DNA from: Vicinamibacteraceae bacterium
Lineage (GTDB): Bacteria > Acidobacteriota > Vicinamibacteria > Marinacidobacterales > Marinacidobacteraceae
Direction of reading: 5' to 3'
DNA length: 49,345 nucleotides
Assembly: GCA_012271265.1 (NCBI GenBank)
Contig: JAAXGQ010000045.1
Coordinates: 1-49,345, forward strand
A program made the position numbers and the translations under genes. Positions 23,759-29,054 of this stretch are shown here, piece after piece. The notes under the pieces were generated by a model. That model made no database searches. It was not told where the DNA came from and worked only from the letters and a program-made list of their open reading frames with translations. The stretch's first letter is position 1, and each line of letters begins with the position of its first letter.

Positions 23759-24841
23759 ATGAACGGGGCGCCCGGAACACAGGCGGGGCGGCTCGCCGCT
23801 GCGCTTGCTCTCCTGCTTGCCGCCGCGCCTCTTGCCGGGCAGGAGGCGTTCCGGCTTGGCGGCATCGAGGCGGCACCGGGCAGTGTCCGATCCGGCCGCC
23901 TCGAGGTCGCTCCCTCGGGGGGTGACGCGGGAACCTTCATTCCGCTCACCGTCGTGCACGGGGCCCGTCCGGGTCCCGTGCTGACGCTGGTGGCGGGTGT
24001 GCATGGCTCGGAGTACGCGCCCATCCTCGCCCTCTTGCGGCTTCGCCCGCTGCTGGACCCGGCGGAGATCAGCGGCACGGTGGTCCTCGTCCACATGGCC
24101 AACCTGCCGGCGTTCCTGGGCCGGACCATCTACTTCAGTCCCGATGACCGGAAGAACCTGAACCGGGTGTTCCCGGGGAAACCGGACGGCACGCTGACTG
24201 AGCGCCTCGCGCACACCCTCACCGAGGAGGTCATCGTCCGCTCGGACTACCTGATGGACATCCATTCCGGCGACGGCAACGAGTGGCTGCGCCCGTCGTA
24301 CACCGGCTACTACGCCGAAGCCGGCGGCGCGGAGGTGATCGGAAAGTCCCGGCGGATGGCCATCGCGTTCGGTCTCGACGCCATCGTCGAGTTCCAGGGC
24401 GACCTGGACCCGGGCCGCGCGATCTGGTGCGGATCGGCAGCGGTGGCCCGAGGGATTCCGTCCATTGATGTGGAGTCCGGGGAGATGGGCCTCATCGAGG
24501 ACCGGACGATCGCTCCGATCGTGGACGGGGTGCTGAGCGTGATGCGGGACCTCGGGATGGCGCCGGGCGAACCCTCCCCCACCCGGAACCCGCTCTTCAT
24601 CCGGGAGCGCGCCTACGCGACCAGCGAACACGACGGCGTCTGGGATCCGGATCCGCTGGTCCGGGCCGGCCAGTACGTCCGCGAGGGCGCTCGGCTGGGG
24701 GTCGTGCGCGACTTCCACGGAAATCCCCTCGCGGAGATTCGGGCGCCGGCCGACGGCATCATGCTCATCCTGCTCGGAACGCCGCCGGTGAACCGGGGCG
24801 AGACCATCGCGGTGATTGCGCGGGTGGAAGTCCCGCGCTGA
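23759..24841 (+). CDS. Succinylglutamate desuccinylase/aspartoacylase-like (M14-type) zinc hydrolase, exported
   Basis: Signal peptide; LVAGVHGSEYAPILAL, DRKNLNRVFPGKPDGTLTERLAH, YLMDIHSGDGNEWLRPSY. Confidence 0.85.
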   Translation: MNGAPGTQAGRLAAALALLLAAAPLAGQEAFRLGGIEAAPGSVRSGRLEVAPSGGDAGTFIPLTVVHGARPGPVLTLVAGVHGSEYAPILALLRLRPLLDPAEISGTVVLVHMANLPAFLGRTIYFSPDDRKNLNRVFPGKPDGTLTERLAHTLTEEVIVRSDYLMDIHSGDGNEWLRPSYTGYYAEAGGAEVIGKSRRMAIAFGLDAIVEFQGDLDPGRAIWCGSAAVARGIPSIDVESGEMGLIEDRTIAPIVDGVLSVMRDLGMAPGEPSPTRNPLFIRERAYATSEHDGVWDPDPLVRAGQYVREGARLGVVRDFHGNPLAEIRAPADGIMLILLGTPPVNRGETIAVIARVEVPR

Positions 24842-24912: not shown

Positions 24913-26073
24913 CTACGTCGGACCGGCCATCCGGTCGAAGAAGTCGCGGTGGCCGGCGAGGATCCGTTCCTCCGCCTCCCGGTTCGGCTCGAGCGACCAG
25001 ACGTCGCGCTCCTGGGTGCCGCCGAGCAGGATGCCGTCGGCCCGGGGCATCATGTAGAGACCCCGGTGGAGGGTGATGTAGCGGATCTCCGGTTGCGGCA
25101 GGAGAACGGTGAGCTGGCCCTTGAGCGGCACGAGGTTCTCGTCGCCGACCAGCTCGCGGGCGCCGATGCCGGTGCAGTTCACGATGCGGCGCTCCGGCAA
25201 CGCCGCCACCTCGTCGAGGGATGAGAAGTCGCGGATGCGGATCCGACCCCCGGCGAGCTGGAAGTCCCGCATGACGGCGTTCAGATAGACCGGGGGCTCG
25301 ATCATCATCGTCTGGAACCGCCGGGCATGGCGCGCCGGGAACGGATGCGTCCCGGCGTCGTACTCCTGGGCATCGGGAAAGAACCCCTCCGACCCCTGCT
25401 GGCCGACCGGCCCGCCGAAGGGCGTATCGCTGAGCACGTAGTTCGGAAGCCAGTGAACCCCGTAGCGGGCGCCCACAAGATCCTGGAACATCCGGTTCGA
25501 GATCCGGGCCGCCCGCTGCGACCGCGCGGCGAAGGCCTCGCTGTGGACGCGCGGGTCGGAGACCGAGAACGGGGCCCACTGGGCGCAGGCCACATTCGAG
25601 GTGGTTTGCGGCGGGAGATCCCGGGCGTAGATCGTCACCGCGACGCCCCGGCGCTGGAGAAGCCGCGCCGTGGCCAGGCCGACCGCGCCGCACCCGATCA
25701 CTGCCGCCCGGGCCGGAGGGAGGTCGTCGGCGAGGATCTCCTCGACGGCCAGCCAGGCGCTGCCCCAGGAAAGGGTCACCCCGGCGCCGCCGTGGCCGTA
25801 GTTGTGGACGAGGATCCGGCCCCCGCCAAGTTCCTGGCTCTCGACCCGGAAACCGGAGGGCCGGAAGGGGCGGAGGCCGGCCACCGTGCGGATAACCCGG
25901 TCGTGCGAAACGTTCACTGCCGGGAGGTGAAACGCGGGGCCCGGCAGCGGATCCGGCGCGGCGCGGTCTACGGCGACCGGTCGGCCGGCACAGGCCGCCG
26001 CGGCGCCGGCGGCGAGCCCGGAAACGACACGCGCCCCGGCGCCGAGCATCCGGCGGCGGGAGAGAGATCGCAC
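24913..26073 (-). CDS. D-amino-acid-oxidase-like FAD-dependent oxidoreductase with Tat/lipoprotein-type signal and permuted domain order
   Basis: SRRRML...AAAC signal; GLRPFRPSGFRVE and VHNYGHGGAGVTLSWG occur before the Rossmann motif AAVIGCGAVGLATARLLQRRG; RIVNCTGIGA in the middle, YMMPRADGILLGGTQ near the C-terminus. Confidence 0.85.
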   Translation of the reverse strand: MRSLSRRRMLGAGARVVSGLAAGAAAACAGRPVAVDRAAPDPLPGPAFHLPAVNVSHDRVIRTVAGLRPFRPSGFRVESQELGGGRILVHNYGHGGAGVTLSWGSAWLAVEEILADDLPPARAAVIGCGAVGLATARLLQRRGVAVTIYARDLPPQTTSNVACAQWAPFSVSDPRVHSEAFAARSQRAARISNRMFQDLVGARYGVHWLPNYVLSDTPFGGPVGQQGSEGFFPDAQEYDAGTHPFPARHARRFQTMMIEPPVYLNAVMRDFQLAGGRIRIRDFSSLDEVAALPERRIVNCTGIGARELVGDENLVPLKGQLTVLLPQPEIRYITLHRGLYMMPRADGILLGGTQERDVWSLEPNREAEERILAGHRDFFDRMAGPT

Positions 26074-26397: not shown

Positions 26398-27123
26398 ATG
26401 AATCGCAGACTCTTGCTGAAGGCGACCGCCGCGGTGGGCGGGGCCGGGATCCTGGGCATCAACGACCGGGCCGAGGCGCTTGAACACGAGATGATCCGCC
26501 TGCTCGAGGCGCCGGAGCGGCCCCCGCTCCGCCGCTCCGAGGACGAAACGCCGCTCTCGGTCATGCCGGAGAAGCCGACGCTGGTGGACTTCTTCGAGCA
26601 CCGTTTCGCGCCGGCGTCGCACATCCTGCAGAGCGCGACCCGGGCGATGAACCACGGGATGAGCGAGGAGATCGTGCTGGCGTGCCTCCTTCATGACATC
26701 TCCGTCTCCAACCTGGTGCGCGCCGACCACGGCTGGTGGTGCGCCCAGATGATCGAGCCGTACGTCCCGGAACGGGTCTCCTGGGCGATCCGCTACCACC
26801 AGGCGCTGCGGTTCTTTCCCGACCCGGCGGTGGACTACGAGTACCCGGAGATGTACGTGCGGATGTTCGGCGCCGACCACGAGCCGGAGCCCTACATCAA
26901 GGCCGCCCACAACTACGCCCGAAACCACAAGTGGTACATGGACGCGCGATCCATCACCATTCACGACGACTACAGCTTCGAGCGGGATGCGAAGGTCTCG
27001 ATCGAGCCGTTCATCGACATCATCGGGCGCCACTTCAAGCAGCCCAGGGAAGGACTCGGTTTCGACAACAGTCCGGTGGCGCACATGTGGCGCACCATGA
27101 TCAACCCCCGGCGCCGCCTGTAG
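26398..27123 (+). CDS. HD-domain protein with Tat-like N-terminus
   Basis: NRRLLLKATAAVGGAG; H...LLHD...H...H...D arrangement (HILQSATRAM / ACLLHDISVS / RADHGWW / IRYHQALRFFPD). Confidence 0.7.
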   Translation: MNRRLLLKATAAVGGAGILGINDRAEALEHEMIRLLEAPERPPLRRSEDETPLSVMPEKPTLVDFFEHRFAPASHILQSATRAMNHGMSEEIVLACLLHDISVSNLVRADHGWWCAQMIEPYVPERVSWAIRYHQALRFFPDPAVDYEYPEMYVRMFGADHEPEPYIKAAHNYARNHKWYMDARSITIHDDYSFERDAKVSIEPFIDIIGRHFKQPREGLGFDNSPVAHMWRTMINPRRRL

Positions 27124-28450
27124 GGCCGCCCGGCCCCGGTCGAAGCGCCGGCTGTCCCCGCCCGTGAATGGGGAAGTAGGCGAGAGCGCCCGCAGCCGCG
27201 GTGGCCAGCCCCAGGAGTGACTCGTAGGGCCGCTCCAGAACGCTGTAGCCGAGCGCCCACCCGCTCATTCCCAGGAAGAAGAGCGGCGTCAGTGGATAGA
27301 GCGGCGTCCGGAACCGGCCCCGCAGCGCGCCGGCCACCCGGCCGCGGCGGAGGACGAACACGCCGGCGACGGTGAGGGCGGTCATGAGGCCCAGCGTGAA
27401 TCCCGCATAGAGCAGGATCTGCTCGAAAGTGCCCGAGTAGAGCAGAATGAGGCTCACGGCGAGCTGGACGACCAGCGCCCGATGGGGCACGCCGCCCCGA
27501 CTCGCGCGGCCCAGCACCCCCAGCCAGGGCTCGTCCTCGCCCATGGCCTTGACCACGCGCGGTCCCAGGAACACCATCGCGCTCACTGTGGACGCCAGGA
27601 CGATGGCCAGGAAGCCGGACATCACCCGGCCGCCCGCCTCGCCAAGAATCCGCTCGGCAGCGAGATAGCCGATCTCGACCTGTCCCGCGAGGAGGGACAG
27701 CGGCACGGTGCGAAGGATCACCAGGTTCACCAGCACGTAGAGCACGGTCACGATGAGCGTCCCGCCGACCAGGGCGTGGGCGAGTTTTTCCGGGCGGCGG
27801 AGGTCCCCGACGATGTAGGCTGCGGCGTTCCAGCCGGTATAGGCGTAGGACACGAAAACCAGCGAAACGGCGAAACCGGGGCTCGCCATCATGGCCAGGT
27901 CCCCGGGCATGAACCGCACCGGCTCGGCAACTCCGCCGGCGACGAAGCCGAGGCCGCAGAACCCGACGACCAGGAGGATCTTGGCGCCGGTGAGGAGGTT
28001 GTTCACCCCCGCGCCCCAACCCACCGGAAACGAGTGGACCACCGTGAAAAGGACCACCACTCCGGCGGCGAAATGCGTCGCGTGGATGCCGGGCATGAGC
28101 GGCCGCGCGTAGTCCGCCATGGCGGCCGCGGCGAGGGCCGTCGGAGCCGCGAATCCCACCGTCGCCGAGACAACCCCGGCGGCGAAGCCCAACGCCGGGT
28201 GAAACGTCCGCCGGAGCAGGTTGTACTCCCCTCCGGAGCGGGGGAACGCGGCCCCGAGCTCGCCGTAGACCATCGCCCCGGCCAGCGCCACCAGGCCGCC
28301 GGCCACCCAGAGCATGAGGGCGGGGAATTGCGACGGGACGACCGCGACCTGAAACCCAAGGCTGGTAAAGACGCCCGTGCCGATCATGTTCGCCACGACG
28401 AACAGGGCCGCCGTCGCGAGCGAGAGCCCGGCGCCCCGACGCGTGGTCAT
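27101..28450 (-). CDS. APC superfamily amino acid permease
   Basis: LSLATAALFVVANMIGTGVFTSLGFQ..., ELGAAFPRSGGEYNLLRRTFHPALGF, about 12 hydrophobic segments. Confidence 0.9.
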   Translation of the reverse strand: MTTRRGAGLSLATAALFVVANMIGTGVFTSLGFQVAVVPSQFPALMLWVAGGLVALAGAMVYGELGAAFPRSGGEYNLLRRTFHPALGFAAGVVSATVGFAAPTALAAAAMADYARPLMPGIHATHFAAGVVVLFTVVHSFPVGWGAGVNNLLTGAKILLVVGFCGLGFVAGGVAEPVRFMPGDLAMMASPGFAVSLVFVSYAYTGWNAAAYIVGDLRRPEKLAHALVGGTLIVTVLYVLVNLVILRTVPLSLLAGQVEIGYLAAERILGEAGGRVMSGFLAIVLASTVSAMVFLGPRVVKAMGEDEPWLGVLGRASRGGVPHRALVVQLAVSLILLYSGTFEQILLYAGFTLGLMTALTVAGVFVLRRGRVAGALRGRFRTPLYPLTPLFFLGMSGWALGYSVLERPYESLLGLATAAAGALAYFPIHGRGQPALRPGPGGPTGGAGG

Positions 28451-28562: not shown

Positions 28563-29054
28563 TCAGCGGGAGGCGATCATGGCGATCTCGACGAGAGCGC
28601 CCAGGGGGATCGCCGCTACGGCGACGGTGGTGCGGGCGGGAGGAATGGCGCCCTCCGGGAAGTACGAGGCATACACCTCGTTCATGGCCGCGAAGTCGTT
28701 CACGTCCTGGAGGAAGACGTTCGTGTTGACCACGTGTTCGAAGCCCAGCCCGGCTTCACGGAGCACCGCCTGGAGGTTCTGCATGACCTGCTCCGTCTGC
28801 GCCGCGATGTCCCCGTCCACGAGGCCGCTGCCGTCCGGGTTCAGCGCGATCTGGCCGGCGAGGAACACCAGCCCCCCGGTGTCCACGCCCGAGGAATACG
28901 GGCCGACCGGCGTGATCTGACCGCTCAGGCGGGTCTTGTCCGGTCCGGCCGCCTCGGCTTCCGGAGCCGGAGCCGGCGGAGCACAGGCGAGGCCTGCTCC
29001 CAGGGGGACCAGGACGCCGAGTGCGATAGCGGTGCGGAACGGGCAATCGGACAT
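28563..29054 (-). CDS. RidA (YjgF/YER057c/UK114) family protein with lipoprotein signal
   Basis: ITPVGPYSSGVDTGGLVFLAGQIALNPDGSGLVDGDIAAQTEQVMQNLQAVLREAG...PPARTTVAVAAIPLGALVEIAMIA; lipobox GLAC. Confidence 0.88.
   Translation of the reverse strand: MSDCPFRTAIALGVLVPLGAGLACAPPAPAPEAEAAGPDKTRLSGQITPVGPYSSGVDTGGLVFLAGQIALNPDGSGLVDGDIAAQTEQVMQNLQAVLREAGLGFEHVVNTNVFLQDVNDFAAMNEVYASYFPEGAIPPARTTVAVAAIPLGALVEIAMIASR

Follow-up and report, generated by a model that had tools for sequence, protein, structure and literature searches.

A circularly permuted D-amino-acid-oxidase-like protein family with Tat-lipoprotein signals in bacteria

Few flavoenzymes have been studied as thoroughly as D-amino-acid oxidase (DAAO). 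In its canonical order, the FAD Rossmann motif is N-terminal and the N(H)YGHGGxGxTxxWG block is C-terminal. A gene of a Vicinamibacteraceae bacterium raises the question of whether a protein with these elements in the opposite order is a true circular permutation of DAAO and, if so, what it may do. We analysed a stretch of 49,345 nucleotides (contig JAAXGQ010000045.1; the window), in which this gene occupies 24913..26073 on the minus strand, has a GTG start and encodes 386 aa.

Segment order, rotation and fold of the window protein

The protein begins with a Tat signal peptide and lipobox (SRRRML...AAAC, residues 1-28; 25990..26073, minus strand), recognised from the sequence and from relatives. 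The lipobox Cys is residue 28, and a low-confidence linker runs from there to about residue 50. The twin Arg, hydrophobic stretch and lipobox Cys by which a Tat lipoprotein is defined are all present, as judged from the sequence, and lipidation is inferred. The permuted block follows (GLRPFRP, NYGHGG and WG, about residues 56-116; 25726..25908, minus strand) and includes R68 and G96. The remainder is the core (residues 119-386; 24916..25719, minus strand), with the VIGCGAVG Rossmann motif, the substrate domain and Y340. A match to the Pfam DAO domain (PF01266, 2e-33) together with the FAD Rossmann GxGxxG satisfies one criterion for membership of the DAAO/D-aspartate oxidase (DDO) group, and the N(H)YGHGGxGxTxxWG block is found at residues 90-104. 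The motifs run from GLRPFRPSGFRVE (66-78) through VHNYGHGGAGVTLSWG (89-104) to the FAD motif AAVIGCGAVGLATA (from 123); that is, the C-terminal substrate/FAD block of DAAO lies N-terminal to the FAD/catalytic core, and the canonical order is reversed. The final helix (365-382) corresponds to the DAAO helix that precedes GFRPxRP. A preliminary description, made from sequence alone, had claimed this reversed order and this correspondence of the protein end; both claims held, as did its residue positions and statements about the sequence, the open reading frame being on the minus strand.

In a phmmer search of the PDB, every D-amino-acid or D-aspartate oxidase with an alignment shown was matched twice in swapped order; for human DDO, query residues 119-373 match 11-265 and query residues 61-110 match 280-331. 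We also compared a profile of 25 canonical bacterial DAAOs (320 positions) to every rotation of residues 49-386. The native order gave two separate matches, of 162.2 bits (profile 8-261) and 55.6 bits (260-309), and a single match of about 226 bits, covering profile positions 8-309 of 320, was obtained only for rotations starting at residues 111-122. In the control, the best-scoring start of canonical proteins was the native one or lay no more than 5 residues from it. The two pieces abut at profile positions 260/261; therefore, nothing is missing or duplicated, and each segment is present once. A circular permutant is expected to have each segment once and to be restored to a continuous match by a single rotation, and the window protein fulfils both expectations. 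The earlier claim that all canonical elements occur once, without fusion or truncation, is thus supported.

The structure prediction that the preliminary description had called for, an AlphaFold2 model from 74 sequences, is a confident single domain (pLDDT 90.6, pTM 0.87), with pLDDT of about 96-98 in the moved block. The 33 best Foldseek matches in the PDB are all DAAO or DDO, the nearest solved structures being human DAAO and D-aspartate oxidase; about 280 columns were aligned sequentially, and most of the human structures gave a TM of 0.66-0.69, relative to the target, in this sequence-order-dependent alignment. Such a result would be expected if an order-dependent method aligned the core and omitted the moved block; that this block occupies the DAAO C-terminal site in three dimensions is inferred, in the absence of a permutation-aware superposition. 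With that reservation, the profile rotation, the family-wide order, the single-domain model and the single permuted clade (see below) show that the window protein is a true circular permutation of DAAO with an added Tat/lipoprotein signal.

Human DAAO (3g3e) and human DDO (6rkf), the top PDB matches in both sequence and fold, share the FAD motif, the R68-type Arg, the NYGHGG...WG block and the substrate domain with the window protein. They differ in that their C-terminal block is N-terminal here and in the Tat lipoprotein signal; in addition, Tyr228 is partly lost in the permuted family. Canonical bacterial DAAOs (for example, L089 from Streptomyces fungicidicus, L090 from Tsukamurella, L118-L121 from Acidobacteriota) have the same core and block motifs, and share with the permuted proteins a PR, not the eukaryotic PG, after the Tyr228-type Tyr; however, their block follows the core, and they fall on the other side of the tree. 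Every motif examined marks the permuted family as a homologue of DAAO, yet it fails the defining order. ThiO glycine oxidase, DadA-type dehydrogenases and the MnmC oxidase domain, all of the DAO superfamily, gave weak profile matches far under their cut-offs and lower fold similarity than DAAO/DDO. These three families have the canonical order. Membership in an NCBIfam equivalog was rejected, every score being far under the cut-off; for ThiO (TIGR02352), the score was 56.9 bits, compared to the curated cut-off of 250.8.

Distribution and origin of the permuted family

At least 569 relatives were found in GTDB genomes, among them cultured strains and finished chromosomes. Where a name was noted, annotated permuted members are called only FAD-dependent oxidoreductase. 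We examined 82 proteins, namely those of the best 80 loci, the window protein and its 51%-identical paralogue (G000:C220). All 82 are permuted, with lengths of about 350-420 aa. The twin-arginine RR is found in every one of them (82/82), and 76/82 have a Cys at the lipobox position, so that the claim of a Tat/lipoprotein signal added to a true permutation held as well. The preliminary description did not include the multi-phylum family, the permuted relatives without a signal or the lipoprotein RidA neighbour. The family spans at least seven phyla (Acidobacteriota, Gemmatimonadota, Pseudomonadota, Bacteroidota, Zixiibacteriota, Vulcanimicrobiota and Chloroflexota), with Actinomycetota added through a signal-less Nonomuraea member (L087). 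Among 297 sampled acidobacteriotal genomes, the permuted form is present in 26, the canonical form in 8 and both in none. All 20 pseudomonadotal matches (399 genomes) are permuted; for Bacteroidota, 3 of the 30 genomes with a match have the permuted form, the remainder being canonical where examined as loci. Two genomes of the same class as the window genome (G041 and G253) contain three to four permuted paralogues each.

Members without a signal occur in Rhizobium, Bradyrhizobium and Nonomuraea. On Rhizobium and Bradyrhizobium plasmids (L084, L086), the signal-less gene lies in an operon between a berberine-bridge-like FAD oxidoreductase and a TPP-dependent enzyme, an arrangement for which we found no description.

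Separate core and block profiles were used to classify 79 further proteins, each of which was either block-before or block-after; an overlap in L110, marked as 'inside', was read as permuted. Double-block intermediates, which are expected from permutation by duplication, were not found among these 79 proteins.

A phylogeny of permuted and unpermuted proteins had likewise been called for. Sequences were restored to the canonical order before tree building. In a careful IQ-TREE analysis (89 rows, after leaving out five long-branch rows and thinning 22 near-duplicates), one branch splits permuted from canonical proteins, with support of 100/100, and is present in 100% of 200 bootstrap trees. The quick tree of all 116 rows required two changes because L156, L160 and L161, whose branches are very long, are drawn together, which the program flagged. 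Several independent permutations were considered and rejected because the extra change comes only from long-branch rows, without which there is a single 100/100 clade. It is thus likely that the permuted members are one clade with a single permutation origin. The canonical order is inferred to be ancestral from its presence in the rest of the DAO superfamily. One of the long branches, L156 (G843, Bacteroidota), is an extremely divergent permuted Tat-lipoprotein whose tree position is unresolved.

Active site and gene neighbourhood

Conservation was counted in 88 permuted and 23 canonical bacterial proteins. R68, the equivalent of human DAAO R283 (the alpha-carboxylate Arg in GFRPxRP), is invariant in both sets (88/88 and 23/23). 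G96 (human G313), the FAD glycines G127, G129 and G132, and the block residues G93, H94, G95, G96, G98, W103 and G104 are each present in 88/88 permuted members. The window protein has Y340, which corresponds to human Y228; this position is Tyr in 54/88 permuted versus 21/23 canonical proteins. The position of human Q53 is mostly S/T, and that of Y55 mostly T/A/D/S, in permuted members. It is known that Arg283 and Tyr228 of DAAO (Arg278 and Tyr223 of DDO) bind the substrate alpha-carboxylate (PMC8260693). We infer from the residue conservation that carboxylate recognition is retained and that the side-chain pocket varies; therefore, the substrate cannot be named, and as 34/88 permuted members lack the Y228 equivalent, the substrates of some may differ. 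An acidic substrate, as in DDO, was disfavoured, since Arg216 and Arg237 of DDO have no clear counterparts, a comparison made by eye only. The identity as a D-amino-acid-oxidase-like enzyme suggested by the preliminary description holds by homology, and the activity is inferred.

Upstream of the oxidase, at a distance of 1-3 kb and on the same strand, lie an APC-family amino acid permease (27101..28450, minus strand; PF13520, 1e-39) and, beyond it, RidA, an imine deaminase of the Rid family that itself carries a lipoprotein signal (28563..29054, minus strand). The RidA protein scores 135 bits with TIGR00004 (cut-off 106), has the lipobox GLACA and is the best PF01042 match of its genome; from its lipoprotein signal, we infer that it is apparently an extracytoplasmic RidA. 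Between the oxidase and the permease, a protein of unknown role with a twin-arginine N-terminus is encoded (26398..27123, plus strand), weakly similar to HD-domain Phn-HD (8.9e-6, below the cut-off). The sister genome L003 retains RidA, the permease, this gene and the oxidase. An AstE/AspA-like deacylase, the convergent neighbour (23759..24841, plus strand), is not conserved in L003 and was rejected as a partner on this ground. Scanning the window for Rfam families and for tRNAs gave no match.

A RidA neighbour was also detected at seven Bacteroidota loci: divergently adjacent in five (L066, L070, L072, L080, L081), just downstream in L082 and nearby in L142. The Rid proteins at Bacteroidota loci have a hydrophobic, signal-like N-terminus. 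A RidA was found nearby only in Bacteroidota, the window and L003, and most of the other loci among the 82 have none within 5 kb, so a partnership with RidA is not universal. Gene clusters in which a Rid gene lies close to one for a FAD amino acid oxidase have been described (PMC4433059); in contrast to these, the window oxidase is permuted, and both it and its RidA have lipoprotein signals. Elsewhere in the window genome, a 531-aa open frame encodes three tandem Rid domains (G000:C9:3808-4881; L164, L165, L167).

No operon conserved across the whole family was found; neighbours vary by lineage (hslV/hslU, peroxiredoxin, RidA). In six Sphingomonadales loci (L037, L040, L048, L053, L054, L059), the permuted gene is directly downstream of hslV, and, except in L048, hslU follows it immediately, so that a protease operon is interrupted in a conserved and unexpected way. 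A peroxiredoxin neighbour occurs at five gammaproteobacterial loci. On a Kozakia baliensis plasmid (L088), the permuted gene follows an S9 peptidase gene and precedes genes for a cytochrome c and a CocE/NonD hydrolase, a cluster that possibly hints at an alternative electron acceptor or a peptide-linked substrate. Given the peroxiredoxin neighbours and the Kozakia cytochrome c, the electron acceptor of the permuted enzymes remains open.

Proposed function, alternatives and significance

The reading that we consider likely is a permuted DAAO-fold enzyme, exported and anchored to the membrane, that oxidises D-amino acids outside the cytoplasm; its activity, substrate and partnership with RidA are inferred, without biochemical data. 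In this model, a short linker (about residues 108-121) would connect the former ends of the chain, which would have been opened anew immediately ahead of the GFRPxRP strand, so that the DAAO fold remains whole. With the Tat signal and a Cys for lipid attachment at its new N-terminus, the enzyme would leave the cytoplasm already folded, with FAD bound, and remain tethered outside it. R68 and Y340 would hold the alpha-carboxylate of a D-amino acid during hydride transfer to FAD; hydrolysis of the imino acid, assisted by the lipoprotein RidA encoded nearby, would release a 2-oxo acid and ammonia, and O2 as the acceptor would yield H2O2. A bolder reading, which we see as slightly less likely than not, is that one ancient permutation founded a multi-phylum DAAO-type clade of mostly Tat-exported lipoproteins. 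Moving the N-terminus off the buried Rossmann strand may have permitted export and membrane tethering, and D-amino acids would then be oxidised by an extracytoplasmic module that includes an exported RidA of its own.

Two alternatives keep the permuted fold, and we consider both unlikely. The first is a dehydrogenase, in which a periplasmic carrier (cytochrome c or another), not O2, would take the electrons from reduced FAD. It is supported by the cytochrome c gene (PF13442) directly downstream of the permuted gene in Kozakia, by the extracytoplasmic location and by D-amino-acid dehydrogenase relatives in the same Pfam family. However, no cytochrome c was found among the 10 ORFs examined around the gene in the window, the nearest solved relatives are oxidases, and the peroxiredoxin beside five gammaproteobacterial members fits H2O2 production, albeit indirectly. 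The second is action on another substrate (e.g., an N-alkyl amine, an amino-acid derivative or an opine), outside D-amino-acid metabolism. The diverged Q53 and Y55 pocket positions, the variable Y228 position (54/88 Tyr) and the berberine-bridge-like FAD and TPP enzymes in the operon of signal-less members speak for it; conversely, the carboxylate Arg and the G313 equivalent are invariant, the window protein retains Y340, and the RidA genes nearby suggest an imine product. An artefactual origin (truncation or rearrangement of a canonical DAAO, a gene fusion or misassembly) has in its favour only the unusual order itself and a window genome fragmented into 274 contigs. It is all but ruled out: 82/82 homologues, some of them from cultured strains and finished chromosomes, have this order, the elements occur once each and meet exactly, and the frames are intact.

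The preliminary description knew of no published account of the permutation; likewise, we found no description of circular permutation of DAAO, of a FAD oxidoreductase or of a flavoprotein in open-licence PMC full text, outside which most subscription papers and preprints fall. If these conclusions are correct, a natural, widespread permutant of single origin would provide a clean test case for how permutations originate and persist, and a new starting scaffold for oxidase engineering. D-amino-acid oxidation would also reach beyond the cytoplasm in Acidobacteriota, Gemmatimonadota, Sphingomonadales and others, involving hundreds of genes, and the pairing with a lipoprotein RidA, a partnership that is inferred, suggests that imine detoxification may take place outside the cytoplasm as well.
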